DNA of 39,576 nt, from assembly GCA_944326055.1 (NCBI GenBank), contig CALVCT010000019.1, positions 1 through 39,576 on the forward strand. The letters run 5' to 3'. Below, piece by piece: positions 13,811 to 30,969 of the stretch. The DNA is from an uncultured Erysipelotrichaceae bacterium. GTDB lineage: Bacteria > Bacillota_I > Bacilli_A > Erysipelotrichales > Erysipelotrichaceae. The position numbers and the translations under genes are program-made. The notes below the pieces were generated by a model, which made no database searches, had not been told where the DNA came from, and saw nothing but the letters and a program-made list of their open reading frames with translations. Position 1 is the stretch's first letter. Every line of letters begins with the position of its first letter.

Positions 13811-14050
13811 TCATTTATCCTTCATTTCTATTTCTGTAATTAGATCCGCCAGATCTCCAGGAATATAACTAACAGCGATTTTTGAACTGTATGGTAGAGC
13901 ATTGAAATTTTCTAACCATTCGATCGTTTCTTTGGAAAGTCTGCTCTTTGGAACCGAATATTCAAAATACTCTATCATTTCTTCTTGGCTATTTGCTGCA
14001 CATGATGTTGCCATCATGACAAAACAGATCAACAATATTATCTTCTTCAT
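13811..14050 (-). CDS. Small lipoprotein of unknown function
   Basis: 79 residues from ATG 14050, with GGAG (plus-strand 14057-14060) at correct spacing; an upstream in-frame start would lack one. The signal peptide MKKIILLICFVMMATSCAAN has a lipobox ending in Cys17, so the product is lipid-anchored on the outside of the membrane. The mature part is ~62 residues and acidic, with EEMIEYFEYSVPKS and SKIAVSYIPGDLADLITEIE. No family recognised. It is short and ends with lysines. It may be a truncated relative of the interrupted lipoprotein downstream, since both carry a VSYI...IP-D-x-D/A pattern, but the similarity is weak. Confidence 0.6.
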   Translation of the reverse strand: MKKIILLICFVMMATSCAANSQEEMIEYFEYSVPKSRLSKETIEWLENFNALPYSSKIAVSYIPGDLADLITEIEMKDK

Positions 14051-14282
14051 CATAAACTCCGTTTTATACAAGAATCTTTTCCTTTTCTTTACTTAACTTA
14101 TGTTTTATTAGATCTTATAATTGGATCTAAACTCAAAACAAAAAATGTAGACCCAACTAGTCTAGAATACCGTTTTTATATCGATGGGGGTTATAACTTA
14201 GCACAAGTTCCTTGCCTCCTTCTTCCTTAGCTTTAGTATAGCTTAAAATATAGGTCTTTATAATAAATATCTACAGAAAGCT

Positions 14283-27729: not shown

Positions 27730-28536
27730 ATGAAAAAATTACTAGTTCTATTACTAACTGCATTATTGCTTACGGCTTGCTCAGGTAAAGAAGAAGAGGC
27801 AGACACGACTATCACTGTCGCTGCGACGGCTGAACCACATGCCACGATCCTTGAATATGTGGCACCACTTCTTGAAGAAAAGGGCTATACACTAGAGATC
27901 GAAGTATTAGACAACTACTTTATCTTCAATAGATCACTAGATAATGGTGACGTTGATGCCAACTACTTCCAACATCGTCCTTTCTTTGAAAACGAAGTAG
28001 CTGAATATGGCTATGATATCGTTGAAGCTGCTGGTATCCATATCGAGCCATTTGGCATATACTCATCAAAATATGAGACTATCGATGATATTGAAAACGG
28101 ATCAAGAGTCATCATCTCCAATTCGATCGCAGATCATGGACGCATCCTCAAGATCTTAGAAGATGCTGGTCTTATCACGATCGCTGAAGATGTTGATGTG
28201 ATCGATGCGACAGTCGCCGATATCGTCGATAATCCAAAAAACTTAGTCTTTGAAGAAGTCAATCCTGAACTAGTGACGACAGCTTATACGAATGGTGATG
28301 GCGATCTCTTTGCGATCAATGGTAACTATGCACTAGGTGCTGGACTTGATCCAGTGAATGATTCACTATTACTTGAAAGTGTCGATTCTTCTAATCCTTA
28401 TGTCAATATCTTAGCTGTTAAAAACGGCGATGAAGATAGTCCAAAGATCGGGGCTCTAGTCGATGTACTCAAAAGCGATGAGGTCAAAGCATGGATCACA
28501 GAACACTTTGGTGGCTCAGTCATCATCGTTGATTAA
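27730..28536 (+). CDS. metQ: Methionine-binding lipoprotein MetQ (NlpA family)
   Basis: 268 residues. A lipoprotein signal LLVLLLTALLLTACSGK gives an anchored extracellular binding protein. The mature domain has ITVAATAEPHATILEYVAP, DNYFIFNRSLDNGDVDANYF, QHRPFFENE, and the later NPKNLVFEEV of the NlpA/MetQ family. It captures methionine for MetNI. Of its 25 isoleucine codons 23 are ATC by my count, which sets the local standard for codon use. A terminator follows. Confidence 0.96.
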   Translation: MKKLLVLLLTALLLTACSGKEEEADTTITVAATAEPHATILEYVAPLLEEKGYTLEIEVLDNYFIFNRSLDNGDVDANYFQHRPFFENEVAEYGYDIVEAAGIHIEPFGIYSSKYETIDDIENGSRVIISNSIADHGRILKILEDAGLITIAEDVDVIDATVADIVDNPKNLVFEEVNPELVTTAYTNGDGDLFAINGNYALGAGLDPVNDSLLLESVDSSNPYVNILAVKNGDEDSPKIGALVDVLKSDEVKAWITEHFGGSVIIVD

Positions 28537-28545
28537 GATTATTAT

Positions 28546-28566
28546 AAAAGGGCGATAGCCCTTTTT
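28546..28566 (+). terminator. Intrinsic terminator of metNIQ
   Basis: AAAAGGGC (28546-28553) pairs with GCCCTTTT (28558-28565) around a GATA loop, continuing into T. Confidence 0.9.
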
Positions 28567-28642
28567 ATCATCTGACTTTGATGCGACCTTGTCTTAGATA
28601 GAGATGATTAAGTGAATAAATTCAGCTTTCTGTAAGTTTCTA

Positions 28643-28671
28643 TTGTAAAGGCTTACATATTGATATATACT
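28643..28671 (+). promoter_or_regulatory. Promoter upstream of the secreted-protein cassette
   Basis: TTGTAA (28643-28648), a 17-base spacer and TATACT (28666-28671). It is about 160 bases before the gene at 28836 and just ahead of a tiny ORF with a strong ribosome-binding site. Confidence 0.6.
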
Positions 28672-28697
28672 GAAGCTGAGGAAGGGGGAAGGGGCTT

Positions 28698-28745
28698 ATG
28701 TTAAGTTACAATCCTCATAGATACAGAAACGGCATCATAGGGTAG
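28698..28745 (+). CDS. Possible 15-residue leader peptide
   Basis: ATG 28698 follows the very purine-rich AAGGGGGAAGGGG at proper spacing and encodes MLSYNPHRYRNGIIG before TAG. It lies between the promoter at 28643 and the secreted-protein gene. It could be a regulatory leader peptide, or simply the start of a lost gene. No attenuator structure is evident after it. Confidence 0.25.
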   Translation: MLSYNPHRYRNGIIG

Positions 28746-28835
28746 TTGATCTATTCACGTTTTGTACATTTTTAGTCTATTTCAACAGATAATAATGATC
28801 ATAAAAACATACAGTAATAGTAAAAAGGATGGATT

Positions 28836-29540
28836 ATGAAGAAATTATTAAGTATGTTATTGGCTATTTTGATAGCTTTTACAGTCGTACCTTTATCTGT
28901 ATCTGCTGAAAGCATATTAAATCATTACGTTAGCGATGTTAAAGAATATTATTCCGATACAGGAGAACTTATTGGTATTGAATATTATTCTGAAACCGAT
29001 AAAACTACTTATAAGGTTGAGATCAACGGAGAAGATATAAATGTAATCGACTTACAAACTGGAAGGGTCTTGACGGCAGAATTATCTAATTCCGACCATA
29101 ATTCACAAAATATACTACCAATTCCTGTTAGCCCTTCTATTATTGCCACAGATTATGACGTTTGGCCTAGTTATTACACAAAAGTAGGATCGGCAGAGGT
29201 GCATTTCGATAGCATTTCAGCCTGGACTGTCAGTACTATATTAGGAGTGCTTGTAACTTGTGTTACAAAAGACCTTGGCCTAGCAGTTCAAATAGGAGGA
29301 GCTGTTTATTCAAGTTTGTATTCATTAGCTACTACAATTTATAGCAATAGATATGATGGCACTATTTTAGAAAAATGGGTAATGTTCAATGTATATTGCA
29401 CCACTTTAGCCAGGTATAGATATCAATATTGGACAACGGATGGCATATTTATCGATATGTATACAGAAGAAAAGTGGCTTTTAGACCCTTATGATCCAAT
29501 GTCAGCATATGCTTGTAAAGTGTTAGCTGGTATTTACTAA
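28836..29540 (+). CDS. Secreted protein of unknown function, bacteriocin-like context
   Basis: 234 residues. A clear Sec signal peptide (KKLLSMLLAILIAFTVVPL then SVSA|ES) is followed by a ~60-residue polar region (YYSDTGELIGIEYYSETDKT, YKVEINGEDINVI) that looks like a propeptide. A mature-like part starts near residue 100. It contains a long glycine/alanine-rich hydrophobic stretch, WTVSTILGVLVTC and LGLAVQIGGAVYSSLYSLA, and an aromatic C terminus rich in Tyr and Trp (YRYQYWTTDG). This layout recalls large secreted bacteriocins such as the geobacillin-26 type; I cannot confirm homology. RBS AAAGGATGG is weak to moderate. Codon use differs from neighbours: only 3 of 20 isoleucines are ATC by my count, suggesting acquisition. 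The following small membrane protein could be its immunity partner. Confidence 0.75.
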   Translation: MKKLLSMLLAILIAFTVVPLSVSAESILNHYVSDVKEYYSDTGELIGIEYYSETDKTTYKVEINGEDINVIDLQTGRVLTAELSNSDHNSQNILPIPVSPSIIATDYDVWPSYYTKVGSAEVHFDSISAWTVSTILGVLVTCVTKDLGLAVQIGGAVYSSLYSLATTIYSNRYDGTILEKWVMFNVYCTTLARYRYQYWTTDGIFIDMYTEEKWLLDPYDPMSAYACKVLAGIY

Positions 29541-29551
29541 ACTTTACATAA

Positions 29552-29899
29552 ATGGTAAATAATCTAATTAAGTACTCAAGATATGTTTTCACCACCCTTA
29601 AACACCTTATTAAGGGTGGTGAATCAATTACAAATGGGGTAAAAATATCGATCAAGCATCGATATATAGCTACCTTATTGATTCTATTTTTCTCTGCGAT
29701 TTCTGTCTCGATTTTTGTTATCTTCTATCCAACAGGAATGTTAAATGGTTTTTCTGCTATTTCAAATCAAGAAGGTATCTTGGGAAAGATATGGATATCT
29801 TTGATGCTGATCATAAACATAGCGATTGGAATATATTTTTCGACATGTTCTATTTACTTGGTATGTAAAATAGTGATTAAAACATTTGGAGACAAATGA
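29552..29899 (+). CDS. Small membrane protein, candidate partner or immunity protein
   Basis: 115 residues with two strong membrane helices (about residues 40-60 and 82-106) separated by a ~20-residue polar loop (PTGMLNGFSAISNQEG), and a basic N-terminal tail. No family recognised. It begins 11 bases after the secreted-protein gene, shares its non-ATC codon style and is probably cotranscribed. There is no good ribosome-binding site at ATG 29552, and a 14-base-pair hairpin lies inside the first 25 codons, so the true start or its translational control is unclear. An immunity or export role is suggested only by the pairing. Confidence 0.55.
   Translation: MVNNLIKYSRYVFTTLKHLIKGGESITNGVKISIKHRYIATLLILFFSAISVSIFVIFYPTGMLNGFSAISNQEGILGKIWISLMLIINIAIGIYFSTCSIYLVCKIVIKTFGDK
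29588..29623. repeat. Perfect 14-base inverted repeat within the membrane-protein gene
   Basis: TTCACCACCCTTAA (29588-29601) is the exact complement of TTAAGGGTGGTGAA (29610-29623), with an eight-base loop. The GC core makes it stable. There is no T-run on either side, so it is not a standard intrinsic terminator. It covers codons 13-24 of the membrane-protein frame. Confidence 0.85.
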
Positions 29900-29998
29900 T
29901 CATAAAAAAATATTTGTAGAATAATCACAAATTGTTTAAATGATAATTGCGTTATGCCATTGTGACAGTCGTTAAAATAAAGTAACTTAAGATCTCTT

Positions 29999-30049
29999 AA
30001 AGCACAGATGAAATATAGTTAGATCAACTATCAATGTCTGTGCTTTTTT
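29999..30049 (+). terminator. Intrinsic terminator after the secreted/membrane cassette
   Basis: AAAGCACAGA pairs with TCTGTGCTTT (outer stem, 29999-30008 with 30037-30046), with an inner ATAGTT/AACTAT stem, and continues as a T-run to 30049. Confidence 0.88.
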
Positions 30050-30144
30050 ATTGAAGACAAGTATCATCATGTCATTTCCTTCAAAGATCGAGTTTTATGA
30101 TCTATCACATTATGATAGGATATCTATCTGTAGGGGGGTATTAT

Positions 30145-30969
30145 ATGTTTTTTGTGAGTGACTTGGATGGGACATTATTAGATCATACCCACAAGATCGA
30201 TGATATCGTCTTAGATGGGATAAGGAAGATATTGGCTGCTGGACATTATTTTGCGATATGTACTGGACGCTCTTTGCACAAAGCTGAAGAAGTCAATTTC
30301 GGTATCGATCATGAACATATGTTTTCGATCGGGATGAATGGCGCCATCATCTATAAGGATCATAAGACGATCTTAGACAAAAAAGCGATCGATAAAGATG
30401 TCGTGAGTGATGCTATCGAGACACTGTCTGATGATATCTTTGTCCGCTATGAGACGCGTCTTGATAGTCTATATACATATTCTTATGATGAAGCTGATGC
30501 TTATCTATATAAAGAGCACTTGTTTGAAGATGGTCATGAAGATCGTATGGCCTTCTATGCGATAAATAGTAAGTTCAGCACGACAAAAGATGAGATATTA
30601 GCTCATGATATCTATAAGATCAATTTCTCGATGAGCTCAGCTAAGGCTAAGAAGACAGCTGATGATTTCATCAAAAGACATCGTGATAAGATCGTCAATG
30701 CACCATGGGGCGAAGGTTTTTATGACATCACTGATATAGGCGCTGATAAGGCTATTGCGACAAAATGGCTAGCAGACTATCTTAATGTTCCGTATGATGA
30801 AGTATATACCTATGGTGATAGTTATAATGATCTAGAGCTCATGCGTTCATTCAAGAATTCTTATGCACCATCTAACGCCATCGATATGATAAAGGATGCT
30901 GCTAAGCATGTCATTGGTGATTATGATGATCACAGTGTCATCAAAGATATGTTAGAGAAGATCGCTTAG
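30145..30969 (+). CDS. Cof-type HAD-superfamily phosphatase
   Basis: 274 residues from ATG 30145, after GGGGGG; an upstream in-frame ATG (30097) has no site. Motif I is VSDLDGTLLDHTH, motif II is FAICTGRSL, and motif IV is YTYGDSYNDLELM. A lysine lies before it near DIGADKAIATKWL. C2-type cap. It hydrolyses small phosphorylated metabolites; the substrate is unknown. Its 3' end overlaps the convergent gene on the minus strand by 18 bases. Confidence 0.92.
   Translation: MFFVSDLDGTLLDHTHKIDDIVLDGIRKILAAGHYFAICTGRSLHKAEEVNFGIDHEHMFSIGMNGAIIYKDHKTILDKKAIDKDVVSDAIETLSDDIFVRYETRLDSLYTYSYDEADAYLYKEHLFEDGHEDRMAFYAINSKFSTTKDEILAHDIYKINFSMSSAKAKKTADDFIKRHRDKIVNAPWGEGFYDITDIGADKAIATKWLADYLNVPYDEVYTYGDSYNDLELMRSFKNSYAPSNAIDMIKDAAKHVIGDYDDHSVIKDMLEKIA

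Follow-up and report, generated by a model that had tools for sequence, protein, structure and literature searches.

A presumed secreted toxin and immunity gene pair of an Erysipelotrichaceae bacterium lies behind a leader-peptide ORF common to unrelated bacteriocin-type cassettes

A two-gene cassette of an uncultured Erysipelotrichaceae bacterium, examined here within a window of 39,576 nucleotides (the whole stretch of DNA that was analysed), lies behind a short leader open reading frame (ORF) that recurs ahead of many other genes for secreted and membrane proteins in the same bacterial family. The anatomy of the cassette, the pairing of its two genes, their patchy distribution, an empty site in a congener, coding selection on the leader and the recurrence of that leader before secreted and transmembrane (TM) genes are all observed. 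The cassette represents a new family within a known type of system, and the shared leader would be a new form of leader-peptide control. The reading favored here, with somewhat better than even confidence, is that gene A encodes a Sec-secreted antibacterial protein and gene B its immunity protein, and that the cassette belongs to a regulon under a cis-acting leader peptide; antibacterial action, immunity, stalling, and the sensed signal are inferred, as there are no activity, expression, or ribosome data. The shared leader is more surprising than the cassette itself and is the part worth following, and it is absent from the earlier note on this DNA, which overlooked the conserved short ORF and the shared promoter and leader region (28643-28800).

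The coordinates, the reading frames, and the 11-base gap between the two genes in that note were all correct on re-checking (Table 1), and its description of the pair as foreign-looking is borne out by isoleucine codon usage, GC content, and GATC frequency, all of which deviate from the window genes. A recount agrees that only 3 of 20 isoleucine codons in gene A are ATC, against 23 of 25 in metQ; gene B has 4 of 22, whereas the 14 other genes of the window that were counted use ATC for 62-97% of their isoleucine codons. GC content is 34% in gene A and 31% in gene B, versus 38-47% in the other window genes counted, and GATC, which had been said not to be enriched, occurs 4.3 and 5.7 times per kb in genes A and B, respectively, versus 14.4 per kb in the whole window. 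Both terminators proposed to bound the cassette fold as hairpins (segments 28540-28570 and 29995-30050). The inverted repeat near the start of gene B, not mentioned previously, has no T tail. Rfam models had no match within 28300-30200.

Table 1. Positions of the cassette, its leader, and associated features within the window
Feature	Position	Strand	Remarks
Intrinsic terminator closing the metNIQ operon	28546..28566	+	Fold -11.5 kcal/mol, T tail
Promoter-like site TTGTAA-17-TATACT	28643..28671	+	Consensus match, not proof of function
Short leader ORF MLSYNPHRYRNGIIG, 15 codons	28698..28745	+	Shine-Dalgarno-like GGAAGGGGG upstream
Hairpins beginning at the leader stop codon	28740..28786	+	H1 and H2 mutually exclusive; suggestive only in the window copy
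Gene A	28836..29540	+	Secreted, 234 aa, with a signal peptide at about 1-24
Gene B	29552..29899	+	115-aa two-TM protein, presumed immunity protein; size and layout as in partners of gene A homologs
14-bp perfect inverted repeat within the first codons of gene B	29588..29623	+	-22.1 kcal/mol
Terminator after gene B	29999..30049	+	Fold -17.4 kcal/mol, T tail
Second leader copy VLSYNPHRYKNGILD, GTG start	14157..14204	-	DNA similarity, peptide pattern
Lipoprotein-like ORF (86 aa) behind the second leader	13811..14071	-	Counterpart after a leader in congener G045 (L074)

The layouts previously ascribed to the two products were recovered, with gene A carrying a signal-peptide-like N-terminus (hydrophobic over residues 1-29), a second hydrophobic segment at about residues 126-171 and an aromatic, Cys-containing tail, and gene B forming a two-helix membrane protein with hydrophobic segments at residues 36-64 and 74-105. 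Across eight full-length homologs of gene A, the invariant residues Cys188, Cys227, Trp214, and Asp220 lie in the C-terminal part. Neither product has a model match in Pfam, NCBIfam, PHROGs, or PADLOC, in keeping with the earlier statement that no family could be named; side matches to M85, DUF1361, and DUF735 of Pfam and to BasA of NCBIfam were discarded, with scores far under the cut-offs. Structure prediction, suggested in the earlier note as a check on gene A, was uninformative: the AlphaFold model is of low confidence (pLDDT 66, pTM 0.54) and has no PDB match at E<=0.001, and therefore no structural claim is made.

Plain protein scans of genome contigs, viral contigs, and plasmids gave no match to gene A; it took whole-genome searches to find its relatives, homologs of 24-31% identity in the same bacterial family. 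A profile built from three homologs extended this set to G168, G063, and G044, with additional G167 copies and some fragments. Matches occur in 26 of the 272 genomes of the family, many of them to the signal peptide only, and no match was found in 296 genomes sampled from the class except in the source genome itself; matches at C53, G196, G222, and G011 were dismissed as chance matches within other genes. Conserved pairing in scattered genomes, which had been proposed as support for a toxin-immunity unit, is indeed seen: six other gene A homologs, full-length or remnant (in G206, G167 at C23 and C54, G168, G063, and G044), each have a small ORF as the next one on their strand, in unrelated neighborhoods that differ in every case. 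The partner ORFs encode 93-120 aa with a two-TM layout and are strongly divergent in sequence, and a longer subtype of gene A (282-284 aa) pairs with N-terminally anchored proteins of about 200 aa.

The junction that holds the cassette is empty in congener G045, where about 145 nt, with no gene in them, separate metQ from the ortholog of the HAD gene (60% identity). Decayed copies persist in the source genome: C56 has a signal-peptide stub with a broken gene B, and C12 has another broken gene B. Past these broken copies (L026, L027; G000:C56, C12) lies a duplicated region that includes genes resembling DNA-entry-type nucleases. Pairing, patchiness, the empty site, and decayed copies are what a toxin-immunity cassette with a history of gain and loss would show, and the pair is best explained as such a cassette, inserted at the metQ-HAD junction. 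A fixed, vertically inherited housekeeping unit, which the earlier note had named as what would refute its reading, is scarcely tenable: no evidence supporting it was found, patchy presence and atypical codon usage speak against it, and the empty metQ-HAD junction in G045 refutes it. The reading of the pair as a secreted antimicrobial with its immunity protein is thus supported by genomics (pairing, empty site, decayed copies), with antibacterial activity and immunity remaining inferences. A bacteriocin-immunity cassette is marked by a toxin-like gene and an adjacent small membrane protein kept as a pair, as is found here, and of the marks of a class III bacteriocin (secreted, above 10 kDa), secretion and size fit gene A, and killing is inferred.

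The suggestion that gene A might belong with geobacillin 26 (Geo26) was borne out neither by HMM nor by profile-profile comparison. The model NF035925 gave no match at E<=1 to gene A or to any of eight members of its family, nor any match in the source genome; as a positive control, Ali24, taken from its plasmid, scores 123.6 bits against it. Alicyclobacillin 24 (Ali24) is a proven member of the Geo26 family (PMC13176240). When the gene A profile was compared with six Geo26 proteins in hhalign, only the signal peptide aligned. Gene A resembles the class III proteins Geo26 and Ali24 (NF035925) in its Sec signal peptide, its length within a range of about 235-245 aa, its N-terminal polar or beta part, and its hydrophobic segment; Geo26-family proteins are 238-245 aa long, comparable with the 234 aa of gene A (PMC13176240). 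Geo26 relatives of the same order are also followed by a small ORF (62-81 aa), as is gene A, but gene A differs in having a 60-aa tail with Cys and aromatic residues past its hydrophobic segment, whereas in Geo26 and Ali24 the TM helix is predicted near the C-terminus (PMC13176240). At most, gene A functions like Geo26; membership is not shown. On a Clostridioides difficile plasmid (L116, CP103805), a 131-aa ORF follows a geobacillin-26 family gene; its N-terminal part is hydrophobic, and it may encode a Geo26 immunity protein.

The 236 bases 5′ of gene A are 70-97% identical to other sites of the source genome, where the leader recurs at about 14 loci, every copy combining a promoter-like site and a Shine-Dalgarno-like stretch with an ORF of 15 codons. 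A palindrome (TGTAAAGGCTTACA, 28644-28657) common to these paralogous leaders overlaps the -35 element. The encoded peptide is MLSYNPHRY(R/K/G)NGI(I/V)(G/D) or MINYIPSRYKNGIIG, with synonymous changes between copies. Reading the ORF frame gives a pN/pS of 0.20, against 1.47 and 0.88 for the two alternative frames; only 1 of 1000 column shuffles gave a value as low. This set was assembled by DNA similarity alone, without conditioning on the peptide, and only such a set tests coding selection without bias, because a pattern search presupposes the peptide; pN/pS on pattern-selected leaders was discarded as circular. The leader reading frame is under purifying selection at the peptide level, and a short ORF serving as an RNA motif only was put aside because wobble positions vary freely. 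It could still be supposed that the leader is not itself regulatory and is merely the front end (promoter, ORF, and signal-peptide start) of a duplicated and recombined module, conserved through recent ancestry. The 70-97% identity between copies and the extent of their similarity, which runs through promoter and leader into the signal peptides (C31 and C44 share MRRLLKVFVAILMV...), would suit such a history, but it is rendered improbable by the frame-specific selection within these copies and by leaders of other genera, in which the flanks are unrelated and the peptide is kept. In G045 (L074), an ORF similar to the lipoprotein-like one of the window and a 253-aa secreted protein stand behind the leader. 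At L060 (G000:C41:687-858), a leader 97% identical to that of the window is preceded by an opposite-strand transposase-like gene (IS30-like by eye), and the gene after it is an orphan encoding a two-TM protein of 121 aa.

Across Erysipelotrichaceae, about 70 leader-like loci share the core RYKNG(D). A degenerate codon pattern found 21 sites in 8 of 272 family genomes, and none with a reversed control; scanned over 84,980 species (one genome each), it hit nine contigs, all from Erysipelotrichaceae, including Bulleidia extructa. The set was widened with a sequence model and the shorter core RYKNGD, the codon pattern of which gave 73 matches in the bacterium's own family, against 4 for the reversed-pattern control, and 7 in the sister family, against 6 reversed-pattern controls. 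Four genomes (G041, G047, G048, and G141) carry 7-10 leader matches each, and some RYKNGD matches sit inside long coding frames (L225), as background should. No mention of RYKNGD or RYKNG was found in the literature searched, nor did titles and abstracts from that search describe such a regulon of leader peptides with bacteriocins.

The genes behind the leader are of a recurring type. At 56 of 71 leader loci, the ORF that comes next (up to 350 nt away) starts with a hydrophobic N-terminus, versus 33 of 115 control ORFs; the median distance is 65 nt, and most distances are 20-110 nt. Among the products are secreted proteins 100-280 aa long, small two-TM proteins, lipoproteins, and Cys-rich secreted proteins followed by an ABC transporter. 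One locus (L230/L175, G031:C1:480071) holds a circular bacteriocin behind an RYKNGD leader (TIGR03651, 65.1 bits with a cut-off of 30.7; PF09221), and in G057 a leader with a strong terminator precedes a relative, judged by eye, of the partner of the same genome's Geo26 gene. Most leader-cassette products match no bacteriocin family. A Cys-rich secreted protein of about 103-119 aa with an ABC transporter recurs, always behind the leader (L076, L083, L215, L226, L228), and the secreted proteins tested from this cassette have no family match. Gene A homologs in two other genera have the leader upstream (MGRYKNGDKKVK in G044, MFHNARYKNGDMPY in G206), whereas those of G167, G063, and G120 have no recognizable leader, and leader and gene A are therefore not tightly linked. 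A few leaders lie near contig ends or precede other genes, such as a 465-aa ORF that looks like a methionyl-tRNA synthetase gene (G144:C44). At L157 (G000:C42) and L218 (G048:C43), no stop closes the motif, which instead continues, in the same frame, as the signal sequence of a lipoprotein. These associations also bear on whether gene A is instead a secreted protein of another role, such as surface binding, enzymatic activity, or signaling, with gene B as an accessory membrane protein. The absence of a bacteriocin family match and of a confident structure or fold match for gene A keeps this possibility from being negligible, but it is unlikely given the highly divergent two-TM partners, the patchy presence, and the decayed copies, and given that a certified circular bacteriocin and Geo26-partner-like proteins stand under the same leader.

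At the stop codon of the window leader, two alternative hairpins can be drawn, H1 (GGGTAG/CTATTC, 28740-28756) and the weak H2 (GTTGA/TCAAC, 28745-28749 with 28782-28786). Both are weak in the window copy; swapping arms between copies of the source genome weakens them, with permutations as good in 1.2% of cases for H2 and 3.2% for H1, and the mean folding z of the leader-to-gene segment is only -0.7. Across the wider set, 12 of 76 leaders have a terminator-like hairpin that overlaps the leader stop or comes immediately after it (e.g., TAGACCTATCGAGGTCTATTTT), including TAGACC-TATCGA-GGTCTATTTT on C7 and AAGCACGAG-TTTTTAA-CTTGTGCTTTTTT in G057. The hairpin data fit attenuation. The leader-to-gene spacer is short and without a clear hairpin in G041, G047, and others, and therefore no single attenuation mechanism fits all; an obligate transcription terminator was likewise put aside, being absent in short-spacer genomes.

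Under the favored reading, gene A would be a functionally class III-type bacteriocin of an unnamed family, secreted by the Sec route, gene B its membrane immunity protein, and the cassette one member of a regulon whose mRNAs would all begin with the conserved leader-peptide ORF (RYKNG(D), here MLSYNPHRYRNGIIG). The ribosome on the leader may act as a sensor in cis, such that its progress or stalling at RYKNG would select which structure forms from the leader stop codon and thereby whether transcription or translation reaches the genes for toxin and immunity protein; with short spacers that lack structure, as in G041 and G047, translational coupling may replace attenuation. A macrolide-type +X+ stall at RYK was rejected, as the K is G in C30 and C56 and T in G174:C59, and the N-G-D that follows stays conserved.

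The main rival to a cis-acting leader is a trans-acting one, in which the short ORF encodes a leaderless signaling peptide for an RRNPP/Rgg-type regulator that binds peptides inside the cell and its place in the operon provides autoinduction. The RYKNGD core has the size of RRNPP-type signal peptides. At G044:C9 (L105:2262-3449), a 395-aa ORF with an N-terminal HTH_3 match lies directly upstream of MGRYKNGD, and the palindrome over the -35 element could be read in the same sense. This likeness to RRNPP/Rgg systems, in a short peptide and one adjacent HTH regulator, is offset by clear differences: the short ORF has no secretion or export signal, it is repeated once per operon at each transcript start, which a trans signal would not need, and such a regulator adjoins just one locus among those looked at, leaving this alternative rather unlikely. 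The MGRYKNGD leader at L105 also precedes a secreted/TM pair.

A broader form of the cis-acting reading, entertained only tentatively and with the balance somewhat against it, is that one RYKNG(D) nascent-peptide sensor coordinates a genome-wide arsenal of unrelated bacteriocin and immunity cassettes in Erysipelotrichaceae, all switched together by the state of the ribosome. If this is true, that state might be drug-bound or starved, and translation stress imposed by competitors would trigger bacteriocin release. The question raised is whether one short nascent peptide governs a whole toxin regulon as competition sensing through the ribosome. The leader motif also offers a sequence tag for bacteriocin-type cassettes missed by family models in bacteria of the mammalian mouth and gut; nearly all products behind it match no family.

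Among known systems, the circularin A/uberolysin family (TIGR03651, PF09221) is linked to the cassette in that its G031 member sits behind the same leader, but it shares neither sequence nor maturation with gene A. The closest counterparts of the leader are translation-attenuation leader peptides of the ErmCL/ErmBL, TnaC, and SpeFL types. The RYKNG(D) leader resembles these in being a short ORF with a Shine-Dalgarno-like sequence and conservation at the peptide level and, in part of the set, in placing its stop codon within a hairpin or terminator before the controlled gene. It differs in its short core, free N-terminus, variable stop distance, and unproven stalling, and in that a single motif is common to many unrelated bacteriocin-type operons.
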